This document shows positions 67 through 28,940 of a stretch of DNA of 32,379 nucleotides, in pieces. Each line of letters opens with the position of its first letter. The stretch's first letter is position 1. A program made the translations under genes and the position numbers. The stretch is from Ichthyobacteriaceae bacterium. Lineage in GTDB: Bacteria > Bacteroidota > Bacteroidia > Flavobacteriales > JADGDT01. Location: contig JAGLDK010000013.1 of NCBI GenBank assembly GCA_023145615.1, positions 1 through 32,379 on the forward strand, given 5' to 3'. The notes under the pieces were generated by a model. It was not told where the DNA came from and made no database searches. It saw only the letters and a program-made list of their open reading frames with translations.

Positions 67-120
67 ATAAAAGCAAAAAAAAGCCACATTAATATTAATG
101 TGACTTTTTTTTGCTTTTAT
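67..120. terminator. Bidirectional intrinsic terminator
   Basis: A 54-base palindrome centred between 93 and 94, with a single C/A mismatch at 84/103. Eight A residues (75-82) and eight T residues (105-112) lie within the arms, so it offers a stem plus U-tract on either strand. It lies about 80 bases beyond the stop of the minus-strand PorP/SprF-like gene and probably ends that operon. It would also end any plus-strand gene entering from the left. Confidence 0.8.
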
Positions 121-202: not shown

Positions 203-1639
203 TTATTGCACCTCTTTAATCCACAATTCATCGAAATATGTACCATTTATATTATTCGATTTTAATTTCAATGCTGATTCGTATGTTTTGTACTTTCTTA
301 AAAATACGTAATAAAAATTATTTGCTCGGTTATAAAAATACTCTACATCGTATCCTTCCGATACTAATTTAGTATTTAAATCTTCGGCATTTTTACGATA
401 TGCAAACACTCCTGCTACAATATAATAACCTCTACTTCCGGCTACAACATTACTTGCAATTGTCGACATATCATTATATATATCATCTTCTTCTCCTCCA
501 ATTTTTTCCTTGTGCACTATAAGTTGATTGGCGTTTATTACAATATCATTTCTAAGTGCATCGGCTATTGAATCCATACGTTTAATCATACGTTCTTCAA
601 GCTCTTTCATTAGCACTAATTCTTCCTGACGTAATTTTTCAATTTCAAGCCTAACCTGACTCATTATACCAGTTGTATCAGCACTTCCTTTTCCATCACT
701 GCTATAAACTCCATTATTCCCAAAGTTATAAACAAGTGTTAATTCGTGTGTAGAACCAAGGCTTCTTGATACATTAGACATATTAAACTCTGTAGCATAC
801 CCTACTGCTAAATCATCGGTTAAATACATTCCTAAACTAGCCATTGGACCTGTATGAGTACGATATCCTCCACTAAGCCAACCTAACTTGCGCATATCTA
901 ACATTAAATGCCCATCAACTTGAACCGGAATTTCTGGGGTATATCTAACTAAAACCTGAGGCACTAAGCTCATCTGCTTTCCAAAATCGCCTAATTGCTT
1001 CATCTCGAAATCATATGTATATTTCATCGACCCAATATAGTGTCGGTTTAAATTATATATTACCGATGTATCTCTTAATTCTTGTGCATAATCTATAGAG
1101 TTTTCGAATAATTGTGGTGCCGAAAATCCAATATCGAAATTATAAAAATTAAAATTAACACCTGCATTAAAGTCGAACTCAGTTTTTCCGGCAGTATTAC
1201 CTGCATAAACTATATCGGAACGATCAGCTACAATCTCCGATTTATTTATCCCTTCGTTAATAACTCCAACACTTAATCCTAAAGAAATTCTAAAACCTTC
1301 GGTAGCTAAAAACGAAAAAGAATATCCTCCGTAAAACGAAGTAGTTTGTAAAATACCAGTTTGATCGTGATACAAATATCCTGAATAACCAACATTATCG
1401 TTAGTTCGTTTTCCATTAAAAGAAATTAAAGATGTTTCTGGAGCTCCATCAACACCAATCCATTGATTACGGTGAATTAAAGCCATAATTGATTTATCAT
1501 CAGAACCCGACAATGCAGGATTCAGAACAAATTGATTGTACTTAAACTGATTATAAACTGGCAACTGTTGCGCTTCTGCTTTACTTACAAGTAGCAGTAA
1601 AACTACCAATAATTTTATTGTTTTAAATATATTTTTCAT
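203..1639 (-). CDS. PorP/SprF-family T9SS outer membrane protein with C-terminal SPOR-like domain
   Basis: Membrane partner of a type IX secretion cargo. Numbering is from an upstream ATG at 1654. I prefer the start at 1639 because it gives a compact signal peptide (MKNIFKTIKLLVVLLLLVSKAEAQ). After the signal, the mature protein opens with LPVYNQFKYNQFVLNPALSG, the typical start of PorP/SprF proteins, and continues as a beta-barrel to about residue 310. Family members are usually near 310-340 residues; this one has about 150 more. The extra part holds a charged heptad-like helix (about 333-375), a linker, and about 75 residues beginning GYYIVAGVFAYRKNAEDL that match a SPOR peptidoglycan-binding fold. 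It lies 19 bases after the giant T9SS cargo gene on the same strand, like sprB-sprF pairs, so it probably anchors or helps export that cargo. The family call is firm; SPOR is by pattern only. Confidence 0.85.
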   Translation of the reverse strand: MKNIFKTIKLLVVLLLLVSKAEAQQLPVYNQFKYNQFVLNPALSGSDDKSIMALIHRNQWIGVDGAPETSLISFNGKRTNDNVGYSGYLYHDQTGILQTTSFYGGYSFSFLATEGFRISLGLSVGVINEGINKSEIVADRSDIVYAGNTAGKTEFDFNAGVNFNFYNFDIGFSAPQLFENSIDYAQELRDTSVIYNLNRHYIGSMKYTYDFEMKQLGDFGKQMSLVPQVLVRYTPEIPVQVDGHLMLDMRKLGWLSGGYRTHTGPMASLGMYLTDDLAVGYATEFNMSNVSRSLGSTHELTLVYNFGNNGVYSSDGKGSADTTGIMSQVRLEIEKLRQEELVLMKELEERMIKRMDSIADALRNDIVINANQLIVHKEKIGGEEDDIYNDMSTIASNVVAGSRGYYIVAGVFAYRKNAEDLNTKLVSEGYDVEYFYNRANNFYYVFLRKYKTYESALKLKSNNINGTYFDELWIKEVQ

Positions 1640-1673
1640 AATAGGAATTAACATTCAATATAACTAAATAGTC

Positions 1674-4600
1674 TTATTTAAAAATAGTAACCGATCCCAT
1701 AATAGGATTCTTTTTAGGCTGTTTAATTACATAATAATAAGTACCTGCTGGCAAATTAGCCCCACCATTAAGCTGTGGCCAATCGTTACTATATAATTTT
1801 TTCTGCATTACAATCGACCCCTGACGTGTTAGTATAGTAACTTCAACACCTTCAATCATTACAATACTTTCGGGCAATACCCAATTATCATTTACTCCAT
1901 CTCCATTTGGCGTTACAAGGTTTTGTATATCATCGCTACTAAAATCATCCAGAATAACCTCAACATCATAAGTATTATCACATCCATCATTGCTTAATAT
2001 CTTAACCTGATATTTATTTGAAGTTTCAACAATAACATCAAGTGTTTCTCCACCATCTTGAATTAATACATATTTTTCTCCATCAAGTAAATACCACAAA
2101 TAATCGTATCCACCGTATGCATCTAAGCTAATAACATCTCCAACCGAAGCCTCTACTAACTTTTGTCTAACACCTGTTTCATCTCCACTAAATTCAACAT
2201 AAATTGTATCAGATAAAGAACATCCCCACTCTGTGTCCAATTCAGTTACGTTAACAACATACTCTCCTGGCATTACAGCATTATGAATTGGCAATTCCTC
2301 TCCAAAAAGTGTATCTCCATCTAACATCCACGTATATGTTTTAAGCTTGTAATCTTCGTTTGAAGTTACAGTAAGCTTTACTCCTTCAGTATCATTATTA
2401 CACAGTACAACCGATTCATCTCCGTTATTAATTAAAGTACTAATATCATAAACTTCAATTGACAAAGGTTTCGATATAATTGAAACACAACTACCAAGAG
2501 AAACTTCAACTTTATAACTATAACCTGCTCCATTTACATCAATTTCGAATTGATTATTTGCAACATCATTGACTGTTTTTTCAGAATCATAAACCAATTC
2601 ATCAACAATTCCATTACCTGTTTTATACCATTTATAGGTATAATACTTAACCGGCATATTTCCAACACCATCTCCTACACCTTTAATAACAACATTATCG
2701 GCTCGGGCAACTAATACGTGCTCCGAATTATTACAAACTATTTCTGTTAGTGCACCTCCATTAATATAAGGCTCTTTAAGTTTACCAATAAATACATCAA
2801 TAGTATCCGAATACGTTATACACTCTCCTCTTTCAACACCGAAGTAATAATAACCATGATTTTCGTTTCCTCCACTAACCACAAAACTTTCAACAACACT
2901 AAACGTTTCAGAACTAGAAATTTTTTCAGGATCTCTGTCAAGAACATCTGTTAATCTGTACCATGCAAACTCAGAAACTTTACCGTCTGCAAAATCATCA
3001 TAAACTTGAGCTTTTAAAGTAACATCATTACCCATACATTCAACTCTGATAGGTGCAGTTTCTTGGTCAATAATATTTGCCGAATAATCAAATATATCAA
3101 CTTCAACAGCCTCAGATAAAACACCGCACTCTCCGTAATTCAACACTTCAAGCTTATAAAACGAAGATCCTATTCCGTTAAGTTCCTTCGTAACATTTAA
3201 TTCAATATCAGTAGCATCAGCAATTGGTTCATAAACTCCTGAATTATCTTCTTTGTACCATTGATATTTTACTACTTCTTCTACATCTTCACTAATACTT
3301 TTTAACAAAACAGTAGTACAGCTTTCTCTATAAGCATCTCCTGCAATTATGGCTTCAGCATTTTTAGATATATGTACAACAACCGTATCAGAAACACTTT
3401 CGCAAATTCCATCGTTTATTGTGTGTAAAACATACTTACCCGATTCGTCAGAAAAACCAAGTTCTAAATCGGCATAATCACTAACATACATAACACCATC
3501 GTCGGTAACACGCACCCACTTATAAGTAGGGTTAAACAAATTAGTACTTCCCGATTTTAAAACTAAATCAGTACCATCACATAAAACTTGTCCTCTTGCA
3601 CCTAATATTATAGATACCGGCTTTATTATATTTTCAACCTCTACAGCTTCAGATAAAGAATAACAACCTGTTTCAGTATTCTCAACACTTAAAGTATAAC
3701 CACCAATTGTTTCATTCGATACAGAAACTATAAATTCAGAACCACTACCAACAACTTTATCGTTTAAATACCATTCGTATTTAAACAAATCGGATATTGA
3801 TTCTGATTTCAAAACAACTTCACTACCATCACAAAACTTTTCTCCACCATCTACAACTTTAATTACAGCATTAGGATTTTCGTTAACAGTAACATTAAAT
3901 TCTTTTGATAAAACCGAACACGAATTAATTACATTATCAAATTCATTTCTAACTTCAACAACGTATTTTGCATCAGCTTTAACAACATCAGGAACGTTAA
4001 AAGTAATTGCAGGCTGATTAACATTAGTAACCTCAAGCTTATTGCCTCCAACAACTTCAAACCAATGATAATTAAATAAAGTATCGGTTATACTTGAAGT
4101 AAGAATTATAGGAGAGCCATTACAACCACTACTTGCTCCACTAATTTCAACTTCAAAATTCATATATCTAACATCTAAAGGCTTTGATATAGTGTCGCAC
4201 AATCCGTAATTACTTAACTTAACCTGATAAGAACCATCATCATCGTACTGTACAAAATAAGTAGATTTTGTAGCTCCTTCAATATCTTCTGAATTCTTAA
4301 CCCACTGATAAGTATAATTACTAGCATTAAACTTAGATTCTAATTTAAGTTCAACTCCATTTTCGTTACATATATACTGATTTTTTGAAGGAATAATTTT
4401 GGCAGGAACTCTTTCAACAACCACAACAGTAGCAGTATCCGAAACTTCGCAAACATTACCATAAACAGTAAGTATATAATCTCCTGAGTTTTCAACTTGT
4501 GACTTTTTAAGTTTAAAGTTATATTCATTAGATATTACCTTATCATTAAACTTCCATTCGTAAGTTAAATCTGGATTTTTACCTCCTGCTACTTTTAAAT

Positions 4601-7304
4601 GAATATAATCTCCCGAACAAACCGAATCGTTAGTAACAACAGCTTCAACTTCTAAATTTTCAACAGTAACATTAATAATATTAGAAGGTTCGGAATAACA
4701 AGTTCCATCGTTAGTAACAACCAAATAATACTCTCCGTTTATTGTTGGAGCATAATCTATTTCAGTAGAATTTCCAGGAGCTTTAGTATCTTTAGCTTGA
4801 TACCATTGATAAGACGGAGATACAGTATCTTGTAACGAAACTTGTAGTTTATCTCCCGTATTAACACATAAAGTTATATTTGATTCTCCTATAATTTCAA
4901 CAGATGGCGTTATTATATATTTTACTTCAACAGTATCTCTTTTTACACAACCAGATGCTAAATTATCAAAAACAGTTAATTCATATCTACCTTCTTTATT
5001 AGCAATAAAAACTGTATCAGTTGAAAGCGTAGTACCAGAATCTACACCTGCATCAATATAAGTCCACGAAAAAGTATTACCCAACTTTTTCCAACCATCT
5101 TTAGCCTTAAGAGTTATTGGAGCTTTATTACACAATTTAACATACTCAACCGAATTATTGTTTTCGTCAAGTATATCACACTTATATTCAGGTACAGTAA
5201 CAGTTAATATCTCCGAGTACATAGTACACTTATCATAATTAGTTACCGATAATTTATACTGCCCTTTTTCTTTAACAGTAATATCTGCATCAGTACCAAT
5301 AACAACAGAACCCTTAAACCACTCATAAGTTACATTTTCATCAACCATATTAATAGTTGTTGCTGAACTAAGAGTTATTTGATCGCATATATATATTTTA
5401 TTCTCCCCTTCATTATTATAGTCACCTATTAAAGAAATAACAGGATCAGGGTTTTTAGATAATACAACATTTACAGATTCCGAAATACTATTACATGTTG
5501 AATTATTAACAACATCTAATGTAATTTCAAACTCTCCATATCCCTTCATTGAAACACTATTAACTTTAAAAGGATTACCTGTATATAATAATTCGTTTTT
5601 GCTGTTATACCAATTATACGAATAATCACTATCGGTATTAACAGATCTTAATTTAACCTCATCGTTTTCACAAAGTATAAGCTCACCATCAACCTTAATT
5701 TCCGACTTAGGCGATTCAATATATTCAACAGTATATTTAGGTCCCGAAACACTACAATCATATCCGAAAGCAACATCTAAGTAATATTTACTATTTTCTA
5801 ATTCATCAACCTCAATACTTAACTGTTTGCTATTTCCAACTATTTTACCATCCTTATACCAAGTATAATTAAATTCATTTCCAGAATCAATTACATCCGA
5901 TACAAAAGTAACAGTATTACCTGCACACGATTTAACTTTACGTCCGTCAATACTACCCAAACTCTCGTTTTGTAATTCAACGCTATAAGTAATTTCAGCA
6001 GGAATTTCTTTAACTATTACTTCAAGCTGATATGATTTTTCGCATACAGCAGGACCTTTAATGTTTAAAGTATATTTTCCCGATTCAGAAATCTCACCGG
6101 GTATAGACAATTCTGGAGTTGTTGCTTTTTGAATCTCAACTCCATTTTTACTCCATGTATAAGTATATTCAACATCGGCACTCTTAAATTCAGAGGTTAA
6201 ACCAATATCAGTACCAACACAAACCTTTACTTTATTATCAACAATACTAAAACCATTTCCATTTTCAACAATTTTAGCATTAAAATCGTGTACTATAACC
6301 TCAACTAAATCCGATTCGTTAGAACAAACACCAAGATTTAAAGTTTTTAAATAATATTTACCTGTTACAGTTACAGGGTAAGTTTCTCCATTCCCAACCA
6401 AAACATCACTTTCGTTGTACCACTCATAAATAGGTTCTTCAATATTAGTACTTGAAGCTTTTAAAGTAATCTCTTCTCCAACACAAACATCAAAAAACTT
6501 AGCCGATGAATCTTCTATATCAATATCAGGTATTGATGTTACGAAAGCCGAAATTGGCTCTTCGGTAACTCTTACTTCAATAACATCTGATCTAAAATCA
6601 CAAGCTCCCGAAAAATAATCAACATAATAAAAACCACTTTTTTCAGCAGTAATAGACAGTTCACCACTCGCTAAAAATTCATACTCATAACTAATGTCAT
6701 TTTCGGCATAATACCAAGTTAACAAATCTCCATACCCTTCAGTTAATTCACTCCCATCAGGCAAAGTAACAATTCCTTTAATTTCAACTGAACCTCCAAT
6801 ACAAAAATCAGATGGAGTGCTTACTGTAGCATTAACTATAACACCAGGCACAACATTAACAAGCGTAGCTATTATATTATTAATACTTTTATCTGATTTA
6901 CACTGAATTTTAACAGAATATCCATTTCCTCCATCAATATATGGTATAGATATACTTTCTAACTTATATCTAGTAACCCCTTTAACATAATCAACGGTTC
7001 CAAGTAATGTTGGTTCATCAAAACTAGATTTTGAATTAGATAGTACAATTTCAAACTTCTCTGATTCAGCAAAATCACCAGAAACTTTAAAATTTAATAA
7101 ACCACCCGGATAGCTGTAAGTTTCACCAGCACATAAATCGGCTAAATAAAACCTACCCTTATCAATAGATTGAGAAATACCCGACATAGGCAAAGCCATA
7201 ACAAAAACCAGAAGCAGTAAACTAACCACCCTGTTTTTAATTAAATTATTAAAACCTATATAATCTTTAAAATTGTCCATAAAATTTGCTTGCTTCATAA
7301 TCAT
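1674..7304 (-). CDS. Giant secreted Ig-like repeat protein with CHU_C (type B) T9SS sorting domain
   Basis: A 1876-residue surface protein, probably an adhesin. A hydrophobic segment (VVSLLLLVFVMALP, about residues 27-40) ending before SISQS is the signal peptide. In-frame ATGs at 7304, 7298 and 7280 are possible starts; the signal is intact from any of them. The body consists of about 18 divergent repeats of 75-100 residues. Each has a Cys near its start, a Y-x-W core motif (for example YEWYN, YTWYK, YQWYK) and a second Cys near its end, as expected of disulfide-stabilised Ig-like beta-sandwiches. The last ~85 residues start NLVTPNGDGVNDNW and end in GTYYYVIK...GSVTIFK, the gliding-motility-associated type B C-terminal domain used by T9SS. 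The PorP/SprF-like gene directly downstream supports this. The ligand is unknown; no catalytic motif was seen. Confidence 0.9.
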   Translation of the reverse strand: MIMKQANFMDNFKDYIGFNNLIKNRVVSLLLLVFVMALPMSGISQSIDKGRFYLADLCAGETYSYPGGLLNFKVSGDFAESEKFEIVLSNSKSSFDEPTLLGTVDYVKGVTRYKLESISIPYIDGGNGYSVKIQCKSDKSINNIIATLVNVVPGVIVNATVSTPSDFCIGGSVEIKGIVTLPDGSELTEGYGDLLTWYYAENDISYEYEFLASGELSITAEKSGFYYVDYFSGACDFRSDVIEVRVTEEPISAFVTSIPDIDIEDSSAKFFDVCVGEEITLKASSTNIEEPIYEWYNESDVLVGNGETYPVTVTGKYYLKTLNLGVCSNESDLVEVIVHDFNAKIVENGNGFSIVDNKVKVCVGTDIGLTSEFKSADVEYTYTWSKNGVEIQKATTPELSIPGEISESGKYTLNIKGPAVCEKSYQLEVIVKEIPAEITYSVELQNESLGSIDGRKVKSCAGNTVTFVSDVIDSGNEFNYTWYKDGKIVGNSKQLSIEVDELENSKYYLDVAFGYDCSVSGPKYTVEYIESPKSEIKVDGELILCENDEVKLRSVNTDSDYSYNWYNSKNELLYTGNPFKVNSVSMKGYGEFEITLDVVNNSTCNSISESVNVVLSKNPDPVISLIGDYNNEGENKIYICDQITLSSATTINMVDENVTYEWFKGSVVIGTDADITVKEKGQYKLSVTNYDKCTMYSEILTVTVPEYKCDILDENNNSVEYVKLCNKAPITLKAKDGWKKLGNTFSWTYIDAGVDSGTTLSTDTVFIANKEGRYELTVFDNLASGCVKRDTVEVKYIITPSVEIIGESNITLCVNTGDKLQVSLQDTVSPSYQWYQAKDTKAPGNSTEIDYAPTINGEYYLVVTNDGTCYSEPSNIINVTVENLEVEAVVTNDSVCSGDYIHLKVAGGKNPDLTYEWKFNDKVISNEYNFKLKKSQVENSGDYILTVYGNVCEVSDTATVVVVERVPAKIIPSKNQYICNENGVELKLESKFNASNYTYQWVKNSEDIEGATKSTYFVQYDDDGSYQVKLSNYGLCDTISKPLDVRYMNFEVEISGASSGCNGSPIILTSSITDTLFNYHWFEVVGGNKLEVTNVNQPAITFNVPDVVKADAKYVVEVRNEFDNVINSCSVLSKEFNVTVNENPNAVIKVVDGGEKFCDGSEVVLKSESISDLFKYEWYLNDKVVGSGSEFIVSVSNETIGGYTLSVENTETGCYSLSEAVEVENIIKPVSIILGARGQVLCDGTDLVLKSGSTNLFNPTYKWVRVTDDGVMYVSDYADLELGFSDESGKYVLHTINDGICESVSDTVVVHISKNAEAIIAGDAYRESCTTVLLKSISEDVEEVVKYQWYKEDNSGVYEPIADATDIELNVTKELNGIGSSFYKLEVLNYGECGVLSEAVEVDIFDYSANIIDQETAPIRVECMGNDVTLKAQVYDDFADGKVSEFAWYRLTDVLDRDPEKISSSETFSVVESFVVSGGNENHGYYYFGVERGECITYSDTIDVFIGKLKEPYINGGALTEIVCNNSEHVLVARADNVVIKGVGDGVGNMPVKYYTYKWYKTGNGIVDELVYDSEKTVNDVANNQFEIDVNGAGYSYKVEVSLGSCVSIISKPLSIEVYDISTLINNGDESVVLCNNDTEGVKLTVTSNEDYKLKTYTWMLDGDTLFGEELPIHNAVMPGEYVVNVTELDTEWGCSLSDTIYVEFSGDETGVRQKLVEASVGDVISLDAYGGYDYLWYLLDGEKYVLIQDGGETLDVIVETSNKYQVKILSNDGCDNTYDVEVILDDFSSDDIQNLVTPNGDGVNDNWVLPESIVMIEGVEVTILTRQGSIVMQKKLYSNDWPQLNGGANLPAGTYYYVIKQPKKNPIMGSVTIFK

Positions 7305-7897: not shown

Positions 7898-9430
7898 ATG
7901 GAAAACTTAAAAAAAGCCAAAGGAGCACTAATATCTGTATTTCACAAAGACGGATTAGAGCCTATTATAAAGACACTAAATGATAATGGTGTAACAATTT
8001 ATTCAACAGGTGGTACTCAAAAATTCATTAACGATTTGGGAGTTGATGTAATTCCGGTTGAAGATGTAACTTCATACCCGTCAATACTAGGTGGTAGAGT
8101 TAAAACACTTCATCCAAAAGTTTTTGGAGGTATTTTATCAAGAAGAGATTTTGATGGAGATATAAAGCAAGTTGAAGAATACGGAATTCCGGAAATTGAC
8201 ATTGTAATTGTTGATTTATATCCTTTCGAAAAAACTGTTAGTTCAGGAGCTTCGGAAGCAGATATTATTGAAAAGATCGACATTGGAGGTATTTCGTTAA
8301 TTCGTGCAGCAGCAAAAAACTTTAAAGATGTAACAATAATTTCAGAGATGAGTCAGTACGACGAATTCAATAAAATTATTACAGAGCAAAATGCGTCTAC
8401 AACTCTTGAACAAAGAAAGAAGTTTGCAGCTAAAGCGTTTGGTGTTTCATCGCACTACGATACTGCAATTTTCAACTACTTTAACAAGGAAGAAAAAGAA
8501 GATGTATTAAAAATAAGCGAGAATAACGCAAACGTACTTCGTTACGGAGAAAACCCTCATCAAAAAGGTGTATTCTTTGGAGATATGAATGCAATTTTCG
8601 ACAAACTTCATGGTAAAGAGCTTTCGTACAACAATTTACTTGATGTAGATGGAGCTGTTAACTTAATGAATGAGTTTAAAGATAATAATCCAACTTTTGC
8701 AATACTAAAACACAATAACGCTTGTGGTTTAGCAACAAGAGATAACCTAAAAGATGCGTATTTAGATGCACTTGCAGGAGATCCAACTTCGGCATTTGGA
8801 GGAGTATTAATATCGAATAAAGAAATTGACAGTGCTACGGCTCAAGAAATAAACAAATTATTTTGCGAGGTTGTAATTGCTCCTTCTTACGAAGATGGTG
8901 CATTGGAAATTATTAAATCGAAGAAAAATAGAATTATTCTTGTTCAGAAAGAAGTTGAACTTCCTACTAAACAAGTTAGAACTATTTTAAACGGGTATTT
9001 AGAACAAGATAAAAACTCTATTACTGACAAACAGGAAGATTTAAAACCTGTAACAAATATAGAGCCTAACCAAACCGAAATTGACGATTTATTGTTTGCT
9101 TCTAAAATTTGTAAGCACACTAAATCAAACACAATTGTTTTGGCTAAAAACAAACAATTAATTGCATCAGGTACCGGACAAACATCTCGTATTGATGCAT
9201 TAAATCAATCAATTGCAAAGGCAAAATCATTCAACTTCGATTTAAGTGGTTCTGTTATGGCATCTGATGCGTTTTTCCCTTTTCCTGATGCAGTAGAAGT
9301 GGCCGACAAAGCAGGTATACATGCAATTATTCAACCAGGTGGTTCAATAAAAGACCAATTATCAATTGACTATTGTAACGAAAACAATTTGGCAATGGTA
9401 TTTACTGGAACAAGACATTTTAAACACTAA
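7898..9430 (+). CDS. purH: Bifunctional AICAR transformylase / IMP cyclohydrolase
   Basis: Catalyses the last two steps of IMP synthesis: formylation of AICAR with 10-formyl-THF, then ring closure to IMP, in the cytoplasm. At 510 residues it is full length for the family. The N-terminal MGS-like cyclohydrolase domain carries the GGTQKFI and GGRVKTLHPKVFGGIL motifs. The transformylase domain carries LRYGENPHQ (about 214-222), the catalytic Lys-His pair K271-H272 in KHNNACG, DPTSAFGG, and the end motif SDAFFPFPD...GTRHFKH. The gene stands alone behind its own promoter, with a long inverted repeat downstream before mreB. The other purine gene here, purB, is about 9.5 kb away in a separate unit. 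Confidence 0.97.
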   Translation: MENLKKAKGALISVFHKDGLEPIIKTLNDNGVTIYSTGGTQKFINDLGVDVIPVEDVTSYPSILGGRVKTLHPKVFGGILSRRDFDGDIKQVEEYGIPEIDIVIVDLYPFEKTVSSGASEADIIEKIDIGGISLIRAAAKNFKDVTIISEMSQYDEFNKIITEQNASTTLEQRKKFAAKAFGVSSHYDTAIFNYFNKEEKEDVLKISENNANVLRYGENPHQKGVFFGDMNAIFDKLHGKELSYNNLLDVDGAVNLMNEFKDNNPTFAILKHNNACGLATRDNLKDAYLDALAGDPTSAFGGVLISNKEIDSATAQEINKLFCEVVIAPSYEDGALEIIKSKKNRIILVQKEVELPTKQVRTILNGYLEQDKNSITDKQEDLKPVTNIEPNQTEIDDLLFASKICKHTKSNTIVLAKNKQLIASGTGQTSRIDALNQSIAKAKSFNFDLSGSVMASDAFFPFPDAVEVADKAGIHAIIQPGGSIKDQLSIDYCNENNLAMVFTGTRHFKH

Positions 9431-9493
9431 ATAATAATTGGCTGATACTTAACAAATTGTTATTATCAACAAAAATTATTTTAAAATACTAGT

Positions 9494-9561
9494 TGCCGAT
9501 TATTGTAAATGTTATTGCAAATGCAAACACTATTACTCATAATCATTTACAATAATCGGCA
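9494..9561. repeat. Perfect 18-bp inverted repeat between purH and mreB
   Basis: TGCCGATTATTGTAAATG at 9494-9511 is exactly mirrored by CATTTACAATAATCGGCA at 9544-9561, with a 32-base loop. The inner TTAT/ATAA can add four pairs after a one-base bulge. There is no long U-tract on the plus side. It may be a purH transcription end or mRNA 3' structure, or a regulatory structure ahead of mreB, whose ATG lies 31 bases beyond the right arm. Confidence 0.75.
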
Positions 9562-9592
9562 TCTTTAATAAATTTTAAATAACAATAGCAAC

Positions 9593-10618
9593 ATGGGTTT
9601 TTTTGATTTTATGACAGAGGATGTAGCAATAGATCTTGGTACAGCCAACACACTTATTATACATAATGACAAGGTAGTGGTTGACAGTCCATCAATAGTT
9701 GCTATTGACCGTAGTAGTGGAAAAGTAATTGCAGTGGGTAAAACTGCAAGTCAAATGCAGGGTAAAACGCACGAAGACATTAAAACAATACGTCCTCTTA
9801 AAGATGGTGTAATTGCCGATTTTCAAGCATCGGAATACATGATGCGTGAGATGATTAAAAGCATACCAGGAATAAAAAGAAAACTTTTTACTCCATCATT
9901 ACGAATGGTAATTTGCATCCCTTCGGGAATTACAGAGGTTGAAAAACGTGCTGTACGAGATTCTGCCGAACATGCAAATGCAAAAGAAATTTACATGATT
10001 CAGGAACCTATGGCAGCAGCTATTGGTATTGGTATTGATGTAACTCAACCAAAAGGAAACATGATTATTGATATAGGAGGTGGAACTACTGAAATTGCAG
10101 TTATTGCTTTGGGAGGTATTGTATCGGATAAATCAATAAAAATTGCAGGCGATATTTTTACAAACGATATTAGCTACTACATGCGTACACAACACAACTT
10201 ATATGTTGGAGAACGTACGGCAGAAAAAATTAAAATAGAAATTGGTGCAGCAGTAACTGATCTTGAAAATCCACCTGAACCACTTGATGTACAGGGTAGA
10301 GATTTATTAACAGGTAAACCAAAACAAATTACTGTTACTTACGGAGAAATTGCAAAAGCACTTGACAAATCAATACTACGTGTTGAAGATGCTGTTATGG
10401 AAGCACTATCTTCTACTCCACCAGAACTTTCGGCAGATATTTACAACACAGGTATTTATTTAGCAGGAGGTGGATCGATGTTACGTGGTTTAGACAGACG
10501 TATTTCTCAGAAAACTGAGCTACCAGTATTTATTGCAGAAGATCCTTTAAGAGCAGTTGTACGTGGTACAGGAATTGCACTAAAAAATATTGATAAATTC
10601 AACTTCTTATTGAAGTAA
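9593..10618 (+). CDS. mreB: Rod shape-determining actin homologue MreB
   Basis: Cytoskeletal ATPase that forms filaments under the inner membrane and guides lateral peptidoglycan synthesis. The 341-residue length is usual. Actin-fold motifs in order: phosphate-1 DLGTANTLI (about 14-22), the PSIVAID segment, IRPLKDGVIADF, VICIPSGITEVEKRAVRDSA, IQEPMAAAIGIG, phosphate-2 MIIDIGGGTTEIAVI, and the adenosine motif YLAGGGSMLRGLD. The N-terminus MGFFDFMTEDVAIDLG fits known MreB starts and the membrane-facing amphipathic segment. It precedes mreC on the same strand but has an inverted repeat on each side, so its level may be set partly separately from mreCD-mrdA-rodA. Confidence 0.97.
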   Translation: MGFFDFMTEDVAIDLGTANTLIIHNDKVVVDSPSIVAIDRSSGKVIAVGKTASQMQGKTHEDIKTIRPLKDGVIADFQASEYMMREMIKSIPGIKRKLFTPSLRMVICIPSGITEVEKRAVRDSAEHANAKEIYMIQEPMAAAIGIGIDVTQPKGNMIIDIGGGTTEIAVIALGGIVSDKSIKIAGDIFTNDISYYMRTQHNLYVGERTAEKIKIEIGAAVTDLENPPEPLDVQGRDLLTGKPKQITVTYGEIAKALDKSILRVEDAVMEALSSTPPELSADIYNTGIYLAGGGSMLRGLDRRISQKTELPVFIAEDPLRAVVRGTGIALKNIDKFNFLLK

Positions 10619-10626
10619 TAAAATAT

Positions 10627-10665
10627 AATTTGCGGATTTTTACATTAGATAAAAATCCGCAAATT
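10627..10665 (+). terminator. Strong hairpin between mreB and mreC
   Basis: Perfect 16-bp stem AATTTGCGGATTTTTA (10627-10642) / TAAAAATCCGCAAATT (10650-10665) with a 7-base loop, beginning 8 bases after the mreB stop. GCTTTTT follows, within a second small palindrome (GCTTTT-T-AAAAGC). The form fits an intrinsic terminator or attenuator that would lower readthrough from mreB into mreC, although the U-tract is short. Confidence 0.6.
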
Positions 10666-10704
10666 GCTTTTTAAAAGCCTCTAAATTAAAAGCAACTAAC
10701 TGAT

Positions 10705-11526
10705 ATGCAACAACTGATATTATTTTTAATTAAACGAAAATACTTTTTTTTGTTATTACTTCTTCAAATTGTTGCCCTTATTTTAACTATTCAAAATCAA
10801 GATTATCATCGTTCTCAAATAGTTGGGTCAACAGGTAATTTTATTGGAGATACTTATAAAAACATCAATAAATTCGATTCGTATTTAAAACTGAAAGACG
10901 AAAATGAATTACTACTTGATGAAAATGCTAAACTACATTCTCTTCTCGAAAAATCGATGTATAGCATATCTACAAACTTCACAACCTACTCCGACTCTAT
11001 AAATAAAGGATTCCGACAGAAATACCAATATTCTGGAGCTTTAGTAATAAATAATTCTTACCGCCAACGCAACAACTATTTAACCATAAATAAAGGAAAA
11101 ATTAATGGCGTTACCGAAGAATCGGGAGTTGTAACACACAATGGTATTGTTGGTGTTGTAAATAATATTGGAGAAAATTATTCAAGTGTAATTTCAGTAT
11201 TAAATAAAAATTTACTGATAAATGCTAAACTTAAAAAATCGAGTTATTTTGGTTCTTTAAAATGGGATGGAAGAAATCATAACATTTTGCAATTAACCGA
11301 TATTCCTAAGCATGCCAAAATATCAATAGGCGATACAATTACTACCGGTGGATATTCTTCTATTTTTCCTGCAGAAATACCAATCGGAAAAATTTCGTAT
11401 TTCGAAATTAAAGAAGGACAAAATTATTACGATATTGAACTAGAAACTTTTATAGATTATGCCAATATAAAATCGGTGTACATTATAAAAAACTTACATA
11501 AAATAGAACTCGACACTATTCAATAG
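10705..11526 (+). CDS. mreC: Rod shape-determining protein MreC
   Basis: Bitopic inner-membrane protein whose periplasmic part links MreB/RodZ to PBP2-RodA and activates wall synthesis. A short cytoplasmic N-terminus is followed by one membrane helix (FFLLLLLQIVALILTI, about residues 14-29). Next comes a helical coiled-coil stretch (about 50-85, KLKDENELLLDENAKLHSLL) and the twin beta-domain region with family-like stretches such as LTINKGKINGVTEESGVVTHNGIVGVV and GDTITTGGYSSIFPAEIPIGKI. At 273 residues it is of normal length. The gene begins 39 bases after the hairpin behind mreB and is followed by mreD after 10 bases. Confidence 0.93.
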   Translation: MQQLILFLIKRKYFFLLLLLQIVALILTIQNQDYHRSQIVGSTGNFIGDTYKNINKFDSYLKLKDENELLLDENAKLHSLLEKSMYSISTNFTTYSDSINKGFRQKYQYSGALVINNSYRQRNNYLTINKGKINGVTEESGVVTHNGIVGVVNNIGENYSSVISVLNKNLLINAKLKKSSYFGSLKWDGRNHNILQLTDIPKHAKISIGDTITTGGYSSIFPAEIPIGKISYFEIKEGQNYYDIELETFIDYANIKSVYIIKNLHKIELDTIQ

Positions 11527-11536
11527 ACATATAATA

Positions 11537-12052
11537 ATGGATAAAAACTTAAAAATTATATTCAGATTTTTTATTTTAATAATAGTGCAATTAGCTATTT
11601 TAAATAAAATTGATTTCGGAGGTTATATAAATCCACAACTATATATACTATATGTAATATCATTTCCATACTACGGAAAAAACAAAAGCATATTTATGAT
11701 TAGTAGTTTTTTCTTGGGTTTAATACTTGATTTCTATATGAATTCGGGAGGAATTTACGCCTTTTCAACTACATTAATTGCATATTTAAGATACGATATT
11801 TACAGTGCTATTATTGGTAGATTTGAAGAATCGAAACCAAGAGTTGCTTTTGAAGAAGTGCCATTTGTAAAATCATTTGTATATTTATTTATTATGACAT
11901 TTATACACCATACATCAATGTTTTGGCTCGAAAACTTCAGTTTTAATCAACTTGACACAATGTTTATTAAAATTTTTAGTAGTACATTATATACTACTGC
12001 AATGTTAATATTGGTTTTATCTATATTTACACGAAGTAAAAAAATATCATAA
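11537..12052 (+). CDS. mreD: Rod shape-determining protein MreD
   Basis: Small polytopic inner-membrane protein of the elongasome that partners MreC. The 171 residues contain about five hydrophobic segments, beginning with IIFRFFILIIVQLAILNKIDF and including the characteristic NPQLYILYVISFPY and SSFFLGLILDFYMNSGG segments. The position between mreC (10 bases upstream) and mrdA (25 bases downstream) matches the conserved Bacteroidota gene order and is strong support, since MreD sequences are poorly conserved. Confidence 0.88.
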   Translation: MDKNLKIIFRFFILIIVQLAILNKIDFGGYINPQLYILYVISFPYYGKNKSIFMISSFFLGLILDFYMNSGGIYAFSTTLIAYLRYDIYSAIIGRFEESKPRVAFEEVPFVKSFVYLFIMTFIHHTSMFWLENFSFNQLDTMFIKIFSSTLYTTAMLILVLSIFTRSKKIS

Positions 12053-12077
12053 TAAAACAATTAAGCTATAGTACATT

Positions 12078-13907
12078 ATGAACAGAAAAATATTTTCATT
12101 TCTAATGCTTTTTATAGTAATGATAATTTTTTTAATAAGGTTATTTTACATTCAAATAGTTAATGATTCGTACAAATTTGAATCAGATAAAAACTCACGT
12201 CAAAAAATAAAACTCTATCCCGATAGAGGTTACATCTACGATAGAAATAATATTTTATTAGTATCAAACCAACCAGCTTACGATTTAATGGTTATTCCAC
12301 GTAAGGTTAAAAACATTGATACTCTGAAATTTTGCAAACTTATAAACATAACAAAAGAACGATATATAAAACGTATGAAAAGAGTAAAGTCTTATTCATG
12401 GCGTAAACCATCGGTTTTTATTGGAGAACTATCAAAAGAAAACTTTGCATTTTTTCAGGAGAAAATGTTTAAGTTTCCTGGTTTTTATATTCAGAAAAAA
12501 ACACTCCGAAAATATCCATTTAAATCAGCTCCAAATGTATTAGGGTATGTTGGAGAAGTATCGTCGTGGATGTTAAAAAAAGACACTTCAGGCTTTTACC
12601 GACAAGGAGATCAAATTGGAATTGCGGGTATTGAGAAATCGTATGAAAAAGAATTAAGAGGACAAAGAGGCGTAAAATACGTTGTTGTTGATGTGCACAA
12701 TCGTGTACAAGGACGATATGAGCAAGGAGATTACGATACTATTCCGGTTAACGGAGCCGACATAAAATCGACAATAGATATTTTTCTGCAACAATATGGA
12801 GAAAAATTAATGACTAATAAAAGAGGAGGAATTGTTGCTATTGAACCAGGAACTGGCGAAATATTAGCATCAATAACTGCACCATCGTACGACCCTAATT
12901 TACTTATTGGAAGAAAAAGATCTAAAAACTATTCAAAACTATTAAGTCAAGACGGTAAACCCCTTTTTGATAGAGGTTTATTGGCTCAATATCCCCCAGG
13001 ATCGCCATTTAAAATAATTAATGCACTTGTTGCATTACAAGTTGGAGCTATAACCGAAAATACAGGCTTTACATGTCATCATGGTTTCCGACACGGTAGC
13101 TTACATGTAAAATGCCATTGCGGAATATACGATAGACCACAAAAATTAAACTCAGCTATATTAAGATCGTGTAATAATTATTTTTCTACTTCGTATAAAT
13201 TATCGATAGAACAATATCCAACAACCGAAGAAGGCTTTAGAGTTTGGAGCGAGCACGTAAAAAGTTTTGGATTAGGTAAATATTTAAACAACGATTTGCC
13301 AACAGGAAGAAAAGGCCTTGTACCAAACACACAATTATACGACAAGGTTTACGGAAAAGGAAGGTGGAGACCAACATACAATATATCGAATGCAATAGGG
13401 CAAGGAGAATTATTAGTAACTCCAATACAACTTGCAAACATGACGGCTGCTGTTGCCAACAAGGGTTATTACTATACTCCTCATATTGTGAAAAATATAG
13501 GTGAAAATTCAGTTGAGAACACTAGATTTGCAAACAGAATTAACACTACTGTTGATCCTAAATATTTTCCGGCAGTTATACAAGGAATGATAGATGTATT
13601 TGAACCAGGTGGAACTGGTTGGGCATCGAGAATTCCGGGAATGAAAATTGCAGGTAAAACAGGTACTGCAGAAAATCCACATGGGCAGGATCACTCAATA
13701 TTTATTGCTTTTGCACCGGCTGATAATCCGAAAATTGCAATTGCTGTTTTTGTAGAAAATGGTTATTGGGGTTCGAGATGGGCAGCTCCTATTTCTACCT
13801 TAATGATTGAAAAATATTTAACAGGAGAGGTTAAAAGAAAAAGATTAGAAAAAAAGATTATTGAGGGTAGTTTACAAAATGAATATAACAAACAAAAAAA
13901 TCATTAA
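12078..13907 (+). CDS. mrdA: Penicillin-binding protein 2 (elongasome transpeptidase)
   Basis: Class B PBP that cross-links peptidoglycan during side-wall growth, working with the glycosyltransferase RodA. An N-terminal membrane anchor (FSFLMLFIVMIIFLIRLFYI) precedes the PBP dimerisation/pedestal domain with PDRGYIYDRNNILL and GYVGEVS. The transpeptidase domain then shows all three catalytic motifs: SPFK with nucleophile Ser309, SCN at 364-366, and KTG at 527-529 (AGKTGTAENP). Length 609 is normal. It follows mreD by 25 bases and is separated by only two bases from rodA, consistent with translational coupling of the two partner enzymes. Confidence 0.96.
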   Translation: MNRKIFSFLMLFIVMIIFLIRLFYIQIVNDSYKFESDKNSRQKIKLYPDRGYIYDRNNILLVSNQPAYDLMVIPRKVKNIDTLKFCKLINITKERYIKRMKRVKSYSWRKPSVFIGELSKENFAFFQEKMFKFPGFYIQKKTLRKYPFKSAPNVLGYVGEVSSWMLKKDTSGFYRQGDQIGIAGIEKSYEKELRGQRGVKYVVVDVHNRVQGRYEQGDYDTIPVNGADIKSTIDIFLQQYGEKLMTNKRGGIVAIEPGTGEILASITAPSYDPNLLIGRKRSKNYSKLLSQDGKPLFDRGLLAQYPPGSPFKIINALVALQVGAITENTGFTCHHGFRHGSLHVKCHCGIYDRPQKLNSAILRSCNNYFSTSYKLSIEQYPTTEEGFRVWSEHVKSFGLGKYLNNDLPTGRKGLVPNTQLYDKVYGKGRWRPTYNISNAIGQGELLVTPIQLANMTAAVANKGYYYTPHIVKNIGENSVENTRFANRINTTVDPKYFPAVIQGMIDVFEPGGTGWASRIPGMKIAGKTGTAENPHGQDHSIFIAFAPADNPKIAIAVFVENGYWGSRWAAPISTLMIEKYLTGEVKRKRLEKKIIEGSLQNEYNKQKNH

Positions 13908-13909
13908 TA

Positions 13910-15175
13910 TTGAAAAGTAGAAGTATAAACATATTCGCCAACTTGGACTGGATACTTGTGATACTCTACTTTGCATTTGTGTTTACTGGTTGGATAAACA
14001 TCTACTCGGCTGTGCTTGATCAAGACCATTCTAGCATTTTCGACATGAGTCAGAAGTACGGAAAACAACTGAGTTTTATAATTGCGGGATTAGGATTAAT
14101 CTTTATTATACTAATGCTAGATGGCAAGTTTTATGAACGATTTTCGAGCGTAATATACTTTGTTTCATTACTAAGTTTAGTTGGGTTATTTGTTTTTGGT
14201 AAAAAAGTTGGAGGAGCCACATCATGGTACGCAATAGGTTCTTCTTTTTCAATACAACCATCAGAATTTGCTAAATTTGCTACGGCTTTGGCAGTTGCAA
14301 AATTTATAAGCATACCTAGTTTCTCATTAAAAAAAGTAAAATATCAATACATGATATTTGCTATTATTATGTTGCCGGCATTAATTATTATACCTCAACC
14401 CGACCCAGGTTCGGCACTAGTTTACGTTTCGTTTTTATTTGTTTTATACCGAGAAGGTTTAAACAGTAATTATATGACTTTAGCTTTTTTAACAGCTTTT
14501 TTATTCATTTTAAGTATTCCATTCGACTACAAAACACTAATCTTAATCTTTTCGATATCATTAATAATTTACATTATTTACCAAAAGCAAAGAGGCAAAC
14601 CAATTGTAAAACTGTTTTTGTATTTAACATATATAATTGTGTTTCTAACTTCGGTAGATTATGTTTACAACAACATACTTGAAGACAGACACCGTAACAG
14701 ACTTGAGGTTTTATTAGGCATGAAACACGACCCTACCGGTGTAGGTTATAATCAACACCAATCAATGGTGGCAATTGGATCGGGTGGATTTAATGGAAAA
14801 GGTTTTTTAAAAGGAACTCAAACCAAAGGTGATTTTGTACCCGAACAAAGTACCGACTTTATTTTTTGTACAGTTGGAGAAGAATGGGGCTTTGTTGGAA
14901 GTGCTTCGTTCATTATAATTTTCTCTTTTTTTATAGGGTACTTACTCTACAAATCTGAAAAACAAAAACTTGTTTTCAGTAGAATTTACGGTTATTCTAC
15001 CGCAATGATTTTCTTCTTTCACTTTGCAATAAATATTGCAATGGTTATGGGTATTGCACCTGTTATTGGTATTCCTTTGCCATTTTACAGCTATGGAGGT
15101 TCATCGTTATGGGGATTTACAATTCTATTATTTATTTTCATAAAACTCGATTCCGAGAACAAATCTATATTATAA
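13910..15175 (+). CDS. rodA: SEDS peptidoglycan glycosyltransferase RodA
   Basis: Polytopic membrane glycosyltransferase that polymerises lipid II in partnership with PBP2. At 421 residues it has about ten hydrophobic segments. Family motifs include GATSWYAIGSFSIQPSEFAK-type residues near 105-125, PDPGSALVYVSF, VPEQSTDFIFCTVGEEWGF and GIPLPFYSYGGSSLWG near the C-terminus. The start is TTG at 13910: no in-frame ATG occurs before residues that belong to the first membrane helices, and TTG lies just two bases after the mrdA stop. A weak start codon with tight coupling may hold RodA in ratio to PBP2. It ends the elongasome cluster; truA converges from the right. Confidence 0.95.
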   Translation: MKSRSINIFANLDWILVILYFAFVFTGWINIYSAVLDQDHSSIFDMSQKYGKQLSFIIAGLGLIFIILMLDGKFYERFSSVIYFVSLLSLVGLFVFGKKVGGATSWYAIGSSFSIQPSEFAKFATALAVAKFISIPSFSLKKVKYQYMIFAIIMLPALIIIPQPDPGSALVYVSFLFVLYREGLNSNYMTLAFLTAFLFILSIPFDYKTLILIFSISLIIYIIYQKQRGKPIVKLFLYLTYIIVFLTSVDYVYNNILEDRHRNRLEVLLGMKHDPTGVGYNQHQSMVAIGSGGFNGKGFLKGTQTKGDFVPEQSTDFIFCTVGEEWGFVGSASFIIIFSFFIGYLLYKSEKQKLVFSRIYGYSTAMIFFFHFAINIAMVMGIAPVIGIPLPFYSYGGSSLWGFTILLFIFIKLDSENKSIL

Positions 15176-23478: not shown

Positions 23479-24171
23479 TTATTCTTTTTCTTTAACAGTA
23501 ACAATTACTTCTTCAACTTGCGTTAAGCCGTTTGCTTCAGTTGTAATTTCATAAACAACAACAGAATCTGTTGCCGTTAACAAAGCTTGTTTTACTAGAA
23601 TATAACCATTAAAATCAGTACCATCTAAAGTTTCCTTTTCAAAAGCCATATCAGTTAAATCGCCTCTTAAAGCACCTTTTTTAACAACTACACTTTTAAC
23701 TGTAACTTTATCAATAGTAGCAAATGCAGTATTAACATCAACAGTTACCAACGAATCATCTTTAACCTTATAAGAAACAGCATTAGCAACTACAATAGAA
23801 TGACTTCTTACAAATGGTTTATTATCGAAAGTAGCCTTAAAATCTAAAGTTGCTTCGTCTCCTATTTTACTAATTTTAAGATCAGAAGCAGAATAAGTTG
23901 ATGTACCAACACCATTGGTAATAGCAATATCTCCTAATTTAGTTTCCCCTTCATAAGCTCCATCTTTAAAGTTAATAAGGAAAGCTTCAACAGTACTTAA
24001 ATTCTTAGGCTGATTGTCAATACTAACTAATGCTTTACTATCAAAACTAGTAATATTAGAAGAAATGAAAAACTCAGAACCTAAATCGTAAGTATCAATT
24101 TTTGGCTCTTTTTGACAAGAAACTGCGAACATTCCTGCCGAAACCAATGTATATATTAATTTTTTTGTCAT
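23479..24171 (-). CDS. Surface lipoprotein, third gene of the SusCD operon
   Basis: 230 residues with a lipoprotein signal (MTKKLIYTLVSAGMFAVSC, lipidated Cys19). The residues after Cys are QKEPK, resembling the charged lipoprotein export signal that carries Bacteroidota lipoproteins to the outer face of the outer membrane (inference). The rest is beta-rich with no catalytic motif; it looks like one or two Ig/DUF-type beta-sandwiches (for example LVSIDNQPKNLSTVEAFLI and VTVKSVVVKKGALRGD). It follows susD by 17 bases and precedes the operon terminator, so it is probably an accessory surface ligand-binding protein in a SusE/F-like position. No named family recognised. Confidence 0.75.
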   Translation of the reverse strand: MTKKLIYTLVSAGMFAVSCQKEPKIDTYDLGSEFFISSNITSFDSKALVSIDNQPKNLSTVEAFLINFKDGAYEGETKLGDIAITNGVGTSTYSASDLKISKIGDEATLDFKATFDNKPFVRSHSIVVANAVSYKVKDDSLVTVDVNTAFATIDKVTVKSVVVKKGALRGDLTDMAFEKETLDGTDFNGYILVKQALLTATDSVVVYEITTEANGLTQVEEVIVTVKEKE

Positions 24172-24188
24172 AATAATCTTAATTAAAA

Positions 24189-25640
24189 TTAATTCTTATC
24201 CCAGAACAATTTAGTTTCCATTTTATCACCTCCTACAGCTTTAGCTGCTGCTTGATAATTTACTTTGTTCAAAGTTTGCTCGTTTACAGGGTAAGTAAAA
24301 CGACGAGGAACAAGGTTATCAGAAGTAACACCTAAATTAACACCGTTACCAACTGGCTTTTCCATAATAGGAAAATCTAAACGACGGTAATTGTTATAAG
24401 CAACTAAACCACGAGTATAGTTTGCAAGGTAAGATTGTTCTGCAATTGATTGTTTCCAATTAGCAGAATTGTAAGCGTTTGCCAAAATATAATCAGCAGC
24501 TCCCTCAACACCCCAAAAACTAAACGATGCAGTAATTCCAGCATCATAGTAATCTTTAGCAGCTCCCGAAACAAGACCTCTTGCTGAAGCTTCTGCTAAA
24601 TAAAACTGTACTTCAGAATACGTAATAAGCATTCCTGCAAATTCAGCTTTCATAATAGTATTAGTAATATGAGAATAGTCATCATAAGCGTTTGTATTAC
24701 CATATACTCCACCTTTAAATGCACCTTTAATCTTAGATTCTGGATTAAAGAACGCATCCATACGAGCATCAGACTTAGACGACATTAAATCAACTAATGT
24801 ACGTGTAGGTACAAAATCCTGACGACCTGAAGCAACTAAATCAACAAAAAGTGGGTTAGTATTAGGTTGTGTACCCTGGTAAACTAACAAAGCATTATCG
24901 TTAGCTGAAGCTAAAACTCCACCAGCAATTGCTTCCTCAATTACCTTTTTAGTATCAAGTACATTTACATCAGACTGATTAATTGCAATTTTAAGTTTAA
25001 GTGAATTAGCAAATGTAATCCATTTAGTAACAGAACCATGGTAAATTAAATCAGCCCCATCAAAACTACCAGCTTCTGGCTTCTTATTTAAAACAACTAT
25101 TGCATCATCAATTCTCTTAATTAAGTCTTTATAGATAACAACAGCATCAGTATACTTAGGCGATATATTATTTACATCACTAGCATCAAAATAAGGTACA
25201 TTACCAAAAATATTAACCAAATTATGGAAAGTATAAACACGGTGCAATTCAATAATTGCAACCATGTTTGCTTTCTTTTCTGGAGTAAGAGAGATAGAAT
25301 TATCAGCTAAAATTATCTTTTCAGCTTCAGCCATAGGAGCTAAAACTTTACGATAGTATGCCGAAAATGCACTACCTGGAATATTTCTTTTTAAGATATC
25401 GTAGTTAGCCTCATCTGTATAGGTTGTTTCCGTCCAATACTGAACAAAAATTTTCCAAACATTTAGGTTAACACTTGTTGAAGATACCTGATCAGACAAC
25501 TCCTTCTGAGCCTTAGAGAACAAATATTCTCCTTTTACTTCAGTAGGGTTTTTATCGTCGGAGTTCATTTCACTAAAGTCCTTTGTACAAGAACCCAACA
25601 TACCGGCGAAAGTTAATAATACTATAAATATTTTTTTCAT
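24189..25640 (-). CDS. SusD/RagB-family nutrient-binding lipoprotein (SusD_like_2 type)
   Basis: Outer-membrane, surface-exposed lid that captures a ligand and delivers it to the SusC channel. 483 residues with lipobox LGSC (lipidated Cys18). The start of the mature region, FSEMNSDDKNPTEV, and helices such as QYWTETTYTDEANYDILKRN fit the SusD_like_2 group, as do TPEKKANMVAIIELHRVYTFHNLVNIFGNVPYFDA and the C-terminal PRRFTYPVNEQTLNKVNYQAA. The helical TPR-like core is evident. It begins 12 bases after susC. The ligand is unknown: no glycoside hydrolase, lyase or peptidase gene lies beside it. Confidence 0.93.
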   Translation of the reverse strand: MKKIFIVLLTFAGMLGSCTKDFSEMNSDDKNPTEVKGEYLFSKAQKELSDQVSSTSVNLNVWKIFVQYWTETTYTDEANYDILKRNIPGSAFSAYYRKVLAPMAEAEKIILADNSISLTPEKKANMVAIIELHRVYTFHNLVNIFGNVPYFDASDVNNISPKYTDAVVIYKDLIKRIDDAIVVLNKKPEAGSFDGADLIYHGSVTKWITFANSLKLKIAINQSDVNVLDTKKVIEEAIAGGVLASANDNALLVYQGTQPNTNPLFVDLVASGRQDFVPTRTLVDLMSSKSDARMDAFFNPESKIKGAFKGGVYGNTNAYDDYSHITNTIMKAEFAGMLITYSEVQFYLAEASARGLVSGAAKDYYDAGITASFSFWGVEGAADYILANAYNSANWKQSIAEQSYLANYTRGLVAYNNYRRLDFPIMEKPVGNGVNLGVTSDNLVPRRFTYPVNEQTLNKVNYQAAAKAVGGDKMETKLFWDKN

Positions 25641-25652
25641 ATCGTTATCTTA

Positions 25653-28600: not shown

Positions 28601-28940
28601 AAATACCTAAAGCCGTAACAACTACCTCATCTAATGCTTGTGCATCAGGGCTTAAAACAACCTGAAGAGTTTCTGACTCTACAGTTACTTGTTTGTTGCT
28701 ATAACCAATAAAGCTAAATTCTAGCTTATCTCCTTTGTTAGCTGTAATGCTAAAGTTTCCATCAAAATCGGCTGATGTTCCTTCGGTGGTACCCACCTTT
28801 ACAATACTAACACCCGGCATAGGTAAACCATCTTCTGATGATGTTACCGTACCGGAAACTTGTAACTCCTGAGCCATCATGGCAAATGGAGCAAACAGCG
28901 TAATTAACAACGCCATTAATCCAGTAAAATTAAACCTCAT
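25653..28940 (-). CDS. SusC/RagA-family TonB-dependent outer membrane transporter
   Basis: 1095-residue channel importing oligomers through the outer membrane, powered by TonB. Domains in order: signal peptide (to about residue 23, ending MMAQ), a carboxypeptidase-regulatory-like beta domain (about 25-110, VSGTVTSSEDGLPMPGVSI to LQVVLSPD), the plug with the TonB-box-like stretch ALDEVVVTALGI, and the SusC signature VLKGAAATALYGSRAANG near 222-245. The long beta-barrel ends with a terminal aromatic (NVNLQF). There is no N-terminal STN domain, so an anti-sigma switch is not expected. It is the first gene of a three-gene operon with SusD and a second lipoprotein. No regulator (HTCS, ECF sigma) is adjacent. 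Confidence 0.96.
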   Translation of the reverse strand: MRFNFTGLMALLITLFAPFAMMAQELQVSGTVTSSEDGLPMPGVSIVKVGTTEGTSADFDGNFSITANKGDKLEFSFIGYSNKQVTVESETLQVVLSPDAQALDEVVVTALGISRDKKSLGYAMQEVGGDELNKAKSDNIVNSISGKVSGVQVKTNTNMGGSSNIVIRGSSSLMGNNQALFVIDGIPVNNSTNNEKGQTTGRSGYDYGNPVSDINPDDIESMSVLKGAAATALYGSRAANGVIVITTKKGKNSDKSVVSVGINSGIMVGVVDRSTFPKYQTQYGSGYGPYYSGGDHPGLSYNDETKEYTIPLTEDASFGEKFDENLMVRHWDSFYPDSPTYGQTAPYVNTPNGPISFLNNSLSLTNGFNIGGGTKTSTFYLSYTNTNQSGIIPNSTINKNNVTLNGSYKLSEKVKVSASANYTNTKGKGRNTTGYSGNMMSAFRQWWQVNVDMNKQEEMYDLMGTNATWNPKSSTNLSPIYWNNFYFQVYENFQNDERNRIMGYAQLDWDITEDFSFMSRASIDTYNTLQEERLSVGSTSMEFGVGRPDATSGYAKKSIFFAEVNMDAMFKYNKYFTEDLSFTALAGTNIRRTRNDLLSVSTNGGLAVPGVYSLANSVDPMMPPEETKSEIGVNGLFASASLGYNNMIFIDGTIRRDVSSTLPEDNNAFVYPSVSASFLFTDLVSQDWLSLGKLRVNYAQVGNDAPWGSIQDTYSIEAPFNGNPMVGINDTKLNSELRPEISSSIETGVEMNFFNNRLGFDFAYYKTNTVDQIVPLAVSFVTGYRSKYVNAGEVENSGIELMIQGTPIKTNDFAWNVMVNYSRNRNKVISLGEGVENLQIASLQGGVSINATVGMPYGVIQGTDFVYDNNDENNPDGFRADDANKVVGANGYYKVSSTSDKIVGNINPDFMMGINNSFTYKNWSASFLFDSQIGGQLYSLDQNYGLATGLYAETAFDNDLDNPVRNATNNGGGFINPGVSLDRSGNYVTNTKRVAGNNFRAFGYARKPVAAFIYDATYVKLREASISYSLNKSAAEKIGMKGATLSLVGSNLWILYKELPHADPEASQGAGNIQGWQSGVMPTTRNFGFNVNLQF

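Follow-up and report, generated by a model that had tools for sequence, protein, structure and literature searches.

A PorP/SprF-like shuttle with a C-terminal SPOR domain, paired with a type B cargo gene in Ichthyobacteriaceae and related families

Introduction

How type B cargo of the type IX secretion system (T9SS) is anchored, and what makes a given cargo glide or stay put, is an open question. Such cargo binds PorP-type shuttles (PMC9143113), which are required for its secretion and which, together with the sorting domain, determine its destination (PMC12618676). Fjoh_3952 has been proposed to be a static type B cargo, anchored via a PorE homologue (PMC12618676). In SprF, the C-tail is periplasmic and is linked to GldK of the moving track by a disulfide, for which its Cys-X-Cys motif is needed (PMC12635249).

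In the present study we analysed a stretch of 32,379 nucleotides (the window), i.e. a whole contig (G000:C14) from the genome of an Ichthyobacteriaceae bacterium (2.1 Mb, 68% complete). It encodes a PorP/SprF-like protein with a SPOR domain at its C-terminus, hereafter PorP-SPOR. The locus raises the question of whether a shuttle could hold its own cargo on the cell wall, and the presence of a wall-type domain in the shuttle's own chain makes the anchoring of type B cargo directly testable.

Results

Domain composition and predicted fold of PorP-SPOR

The features of the window are listed in Table 1. The open reading frame of PorP-SPOR spans positions 203..1654 (-), with an ATG start at 1654 or, more probably, at 1639; translation from the latter yields a signal peptide followed by AQQLPVYNQ. 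Comparison with Pfam placed PorP_SprF (PF11751) over residues 22-304 (E 4.4e-54, 184 bits, cut-off 22.3) and SPOR (PF05036) over residues 402-461 (E 1.4e-6, 29 bits, cut-off 21), and the NCBIfam model TIGR03519 was matched with 199 bits (cut-off 90.6). The domains of the PorE set, i.e. TPR, beta-propeller, CarboxypepD-like and OmpA, were not detected in the window protein by Pfam.

Table 1. Positions of the features identified in the window, with the evidence for each
Feature	Position	Strand	Evidence
Strong terminator-like hairpin with T run, 3' of the shuttle gene	70..117	-	Consensus scan
PorP/SprF-like shuttle with C-terminal SPOR domain (PorP-SPOR), 478 aa	203..1639	-	ORF, Pfam, NCBIfam, AlphaFold
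SPOR domain, residues 396-478, beta-alpha-beta-beta-alpha-beta	206..454	-	Pfam, AlphaFold, Foldseek
Long charged helix, residues 324-375, predicted periplasmic spacer	515..670	-	AlphaFold
PorP_SprF outer-membrane barrel, residues 22-304, 14 predicted strands, FadL/PorV-like	728..1576	-	Pfam, AlphaFold, fold matches
Cognate cargo of 1876 aa with Ig-like repeats, 34 bases upstream of the shuttle gene	1674..7304	-	Pfam Ig_7/Ig_2 and CHU_C; homologue at 49/49 loci
Type B T9SS sorting domain (CHU_C/TIGR04131), cargo C-terminus	1677..1928	-	Pfam, NCBIfam
Divergent cluster purH-mreB-mreC-mreD-pbp2-rodA (neighbouring genes, outside the device)	7898..15175	+	NCBIfam
Putative small lipoprotein, after the SusD/SusC-like pair	23479..24171	-	Reading only
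SusD-like and TonB-dependent SusC-like gene pair	24189..28940	-	Reading only

The AlphaFold model of the full-length protein, built with 42 sequences, contains the barrel strands, a single helix, a region of low confidence (residues 372-388) and, over residues 404-477, a beta-alpha-beta-beta-alpha-beta fold with a pLDDT of ~95; the SPOR part modelled alone reached a pLDDT of 90. The preliminary description of this DNA had proposed a barrel, a coiled coil and a SPOR-like domain in one chain. The Pfam matches and the model agree with this composition, and of the coiled coil the long charged helix stands, modelled as one helix.

In a Foldseek search of the PDB the SPOR part matched the SPOR domain of CwlC (1x60; E 2.3e-4, probability 1.00) and, at less significant E-values, those of FtsN, DedD and RlpA (probability 0.98-0.99), RlpA with denuded glycan being among the matches; the TM-scores against solved SPOR domains were modest (about 0.45-0.57). 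When the PDB was searched by sequence, the SPOR profile retrieved CwlC and, weakly, DamX, and the profile of the full-length protein gave no match. The structural matches of the barrel included FadL and PorV-type chains of T9SS structures (8gl6_F, 6h3i_F). Since the predicted number of strands is even and the N-terminus is periplasmic, the model places the SPOR domain in the periplasm, i.e. on the inner side, as supposed earlier, and not outside the cell.

Cargo gene and genomic neighbourhood

At all 49 loci with sequence in that position, a cargo homologue lies directly upstream of PorP-SPOR on the same strand, separated from it by -5 to 74 bases. The window's cargo matched TIGR04131 with 42 bits (cut-off 35), and the C-terminal piece of the upstream gene matched this model in 50 of 50 cases, the window's included, in agreement with the earlier assignment of type B T9SS cargo to the shuttle. 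Most of the distant fusions (see below) also have a cargo gene directly upstream; the exceptions are a fusion with no adjoining cargo (G013) and a second copy in G215 (L190).

Among the 38 loci with at least 7 kb of upstream sequence, purH was present on that side in 29 and mreB in 25. This conserved neighbourhood is a sign of vertical descent; a functional tie of the cargo/PorP-SPOR pair to elongation is a possibility. The gene for exosortase XrtF is found directly downstream of PorP-SPOR in both further genomes of the genus (L010:2078-2656 and L039:10384-10914); the contig of the window stops short of this position.

Distribution and origin of the fusion

Both PorP_SprF and SPOR were detected in each of the 42 homologues of PorP-SPOR, scanned singly (42/42 for either domain; E <= 0.001). 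This finding, together with the spread of the gene in the family Schleiferiaceae described below, rules out for all practical purposes a chance similarity, a wrong join or an assembly error.

The preliminary description had suggested a search for this architecture in other genomes. A search of 99 relatives with the C-terminal part of PorP-SPOR identified full fusions in the genus of the window as well as in families f4, f7, f12 and f2 (Flavobacteriaceae), and the alignment revealed a common plan composed of the barrel, a charged helix, a variable low-complexity linker and SPOR. The fusion loci include those of Thermaurantimonas, Schleiferia, Phaeocystidibacter and Owenweeksia. Within Schleiferiaceae, the window's SPOR subtype was present in 80 of the 88 genomes and in all 19 genera, mostly as a single copy and in open frames that usually span 470-570 codons, genomes of 1.3-1.9 Mb included. 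Ichthyobacteriaceae also carry the PorP-SPOR architecture. The proteins of Flavobacteriaceae are 457-1164 aa long, with linkers of 76-780 residues and either a single SPOR domain or, in many cases, two. PorP-SPOR proteins of 450-455 aa are encoded in two genomes of family f22, which belongs to another order of the same class.

A tree of 52 barrels placed all 23 SPOR-bearing ones on one side of a single branch (100/97; 200/200 bootstrap trees) and separated them from plain PorP paralogues encoded by the same genomes. One old fusion event, followed by retention, is the simplest account of these sequences. PorP-OmpA fusions, in contrast, need at least two changes in the same tree, which suggests at least two independent origins.

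A search for PorP or SprF together with SPOR, in a library without most subscription journals, preprints and InterPro architecture lists, yielded no relevant paper. The parts of PorP-SPOR are known, and their combination is apparently undescribed in the literature searched.

PorE-like proteins and the tails of other shuttles

No porE-like gene was found within ~6 kb of PorP-SPOR at any of the 11 loci inspected, with a profile that may miss a distant porE elsewhere in the genome. Cargo-PorP-PorE triplets occur elsewhere in the same or related genomes. Judging by its architecture, it is plausible that PorP-SPOR replaces PorE for its cargo, as proposed in the preliminary description.

Besides the SPOR-bearing protein, the genome of the window encodes PorP proteins with other tails. 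One of them (contig C77, L126:5258-6760) is a PorP-OmpA fusion adjoining type B cargo, as are those of L202 and L203, and G131 likewise encodes a PorP-OmpA fusion. Contig C8 encodes a PorP with a short tail and with no SPOR, OmpA, HCGC or PorE-like partner. On contig C28, the gene after a plain PorP encodes a PorE-like protein (708 aa; L127:7311-9434), adjoining the cargo-PorP pair and ending in a SPOR-like domain; this C-terminus resembles the SPOR subtype of the window (family profile, E 7e-5) and gave neither a SPOR nor an OmpA match in Pfam. A PorP paralogue of contig C27 (L125:5948-6925) has HCGC in its C-tail and adjoins a cargo of at least 1921 aa; from its sequence it is a candidate SprF-type, track-linked carrier. 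Another PorP group (L132, L135, L139, L146, L149, L154, L157) ends in a conserved Cys-Pro-(Lys/Thr)-Phe, the cysteine of which could, by analogy with SprF, be a linkage site.

The matches from Arenibacter, Maribacter and Eudoraea were considered as further PorP-SPOR fusions and rejected, these proteins being PorE-like. In Arenibacter, Maribacter, Eudoraea and their relatives (L088:9779-12433 and the similar loci L089-L118), such proteins contain one to three N-terminal SPOR domains besides OmpA.

The wall modules SPOR and OmpA look interchangeable between PorP and PorE-like proteins. This exchange between partner proteins is the best evidence for a wall-binding role of the SPOR domain of PorP-SPOR.

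The mature part of PorP-SPOR contains no cysteine in any of the 42 proteins, and the Cys-X-Cys of the C-tail is thus absent, which leaves no means of forming a SprF-type disulfide to the GldK track. At least one cysteine is present in 21 of 26 plain PorP paralogues.

Glycan-contact positions of the SPOR domain

The glycan bound to RlpA-SPOR is touched or surrounded by four side chains (Q270, R302, R309 and R311), with F274 stacking on it (PMC6895207). According to a motif alignment with Q-type SPOR sequences, Q270, R309, R311 and F274 correspond to V408, Y444, F446 and F412 of PorP-SPOR. The first three positions are occupied by V/T, Y and F/Y, respectively, and only the position of F274 is kept. 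Other SPOR proteins of Flavobacteriales, without PorP, also lack the glutamine, and several elsewhere in the phylum keep it. The glutamine and the basic patch are not conserved in all SPOR domains; the assignment by profile and fold therefore stands, but the claim of binding is weakened. With the contact side chains replaced, the binding of denuded glycan put forward in the preliminary description cannot be assumed, and the proposed septal placement least of all. Most glycan contacts in the published work involve the main chain, and PorP-SPOR could therefore still bind the wall.

If the domain acted as in the division proteins of Escherichia coli, it would bind amidase-made denuded glycan and so direct shuttle and cargo to the septum or the young poles. 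Such binding is the best-known function of SPOR (PMC6895207), the fold matches septal SPOR domains, and Amidase_3 genes are present in the window's genome. We nevertheless consider this unlikely, because the canonical glutamine and arginine contacts are absent and because the gene pair adjoins an elongation cluster (mreBCD-pbp2-rodA), not a division cluster; no evidence for septal placement was found at the locus. Judging by the residues, a preference of PorP-SPOR for denuded, septal glycan is doubtful. A SPOR domain of Cytophaga hutchinsonii is reportedly found at the E. coli septum.

The loss of the glycan-contact residues would also fit a protein-protein docking module, directed e.g. to PorE, GldK or a lipoprotein partner, in place of a glycan binder. 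The SPOR domain is highly conserved, as are the aromatics Y406, F412, Y444 and W473, located on or near the presumed sheet face (outward faces were deduced from the alignment and strand alternation). However, aromatics are usual in sugar-binding faces too, and the absence of the glutamine is shared with the Flavobacteriales SPOR proteins without PorP. Moreover, SPOR and OmpA have repeatedly been exchanged for one another in PorP and PorE-like proteins, which speaks for a common target in the wall and makes a purely docking role improbable.

Discussion

We propose, with a probability of about 0.65, that PorP-SPOR is a self-anchoring T9SS shuttle which holds its cargo still on the wall. The cargo would leave through the SprA translocon (an SprA gene is present in the window's genome), and the PorP barrel would take over its type B C-terminal domain; binding of the cargo by this barrel, needed for secretion, is expected by analogy with the studied PorP/SprF pairs (PMC9143113, PMC12618676). 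The barrel-cargo pair would remain in the outer membrane, with the periplasm crossed by the helix of ~52 residues (~78 angstroms if straight) and the flexible linker. The SPOR domain would hold the complex to peptidoglycan, in a same-chain version of the PorE-like role known for other shuttles, and the cargo would be static instead of being carried on the gliding track.

A broader reading, speculative and to be given little credence, is that the cargo/PorP-SPOR pair forms a core envelope device by which a surface layer or filament, once secreted, is tied to the wall growing under the neighbouring MreB-PBP2-RodA machinery; the SPOR subtype would then read some feature of the wall different from denuded septal glycan. 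Beside it stands the near-universal presence of the gene in one family, reduced genomes of 1.3-1.9 Mb included.

It is very unlikely that the SPOR tail acts in secretion itself, e.g. by positioning the shuttle close to translocons, instead of in final anchoring: shuttles are required for cargo secretion (PMC12618676), but export of SprB continues when the C-tail cysteines of SprF are replaced (PMC12635249), which indicates that tail and carrier functions are separate in SprF.

The self-anchoring shuttle proposed here resembles several known systems. SprF of Flavobacterium johnsoniae, the carrier of the adhesin SprB, shares with PorP-SPOR the PorP/SprF barrel, the type B cargo gene directly upstream and the periplasmic C-tail, but its tail bears the Cys-X-Cys linked to GldK, whereas that of PorP-SPOR consists of a helix and SPOR without cysteine. 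The Porphyromonas gingivalis system PorP-PorE-PG1035 and the system Fjoh_3952-3951-3950 likewise combine a PorP-type shuttle, type B cargo and a periplasmic module of the wall-binding type; in these systems the module is an OmpA-like domain in the separate protein PorE, while PorP-SPOR carries the module, a SPOR domain, in its own chain. FtsN, DamX, DedD, RlpA and CwlC have the SPOR fold in common with PorP-SPOR (by profile, prediction and Foldseek), yet none of them is an outer-membrane barrel, and in PorP-SPOR the domain is carried by a barrel and its glycan-contact residues are replaced. A parallel in construction is provided by the PorP-OmpA fusions (the one from the window's own genome and that of G131), in which a shuttle with an adjoining cargo gene also carries a domain of the wall-binding type; they differ in the domain itself and in their at least two separate origins in the tree, as opposed to one for PorP-SPOR. 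Considered alongside PorP-SPOR, SprF with its Cys-X-Cys tail, the PorP-OmpA fusions and the PorE-like proteins that bear SPOR suggest a simple rule, namely that the destination of a cargo is set by the periplasmic tail of its shuttle.
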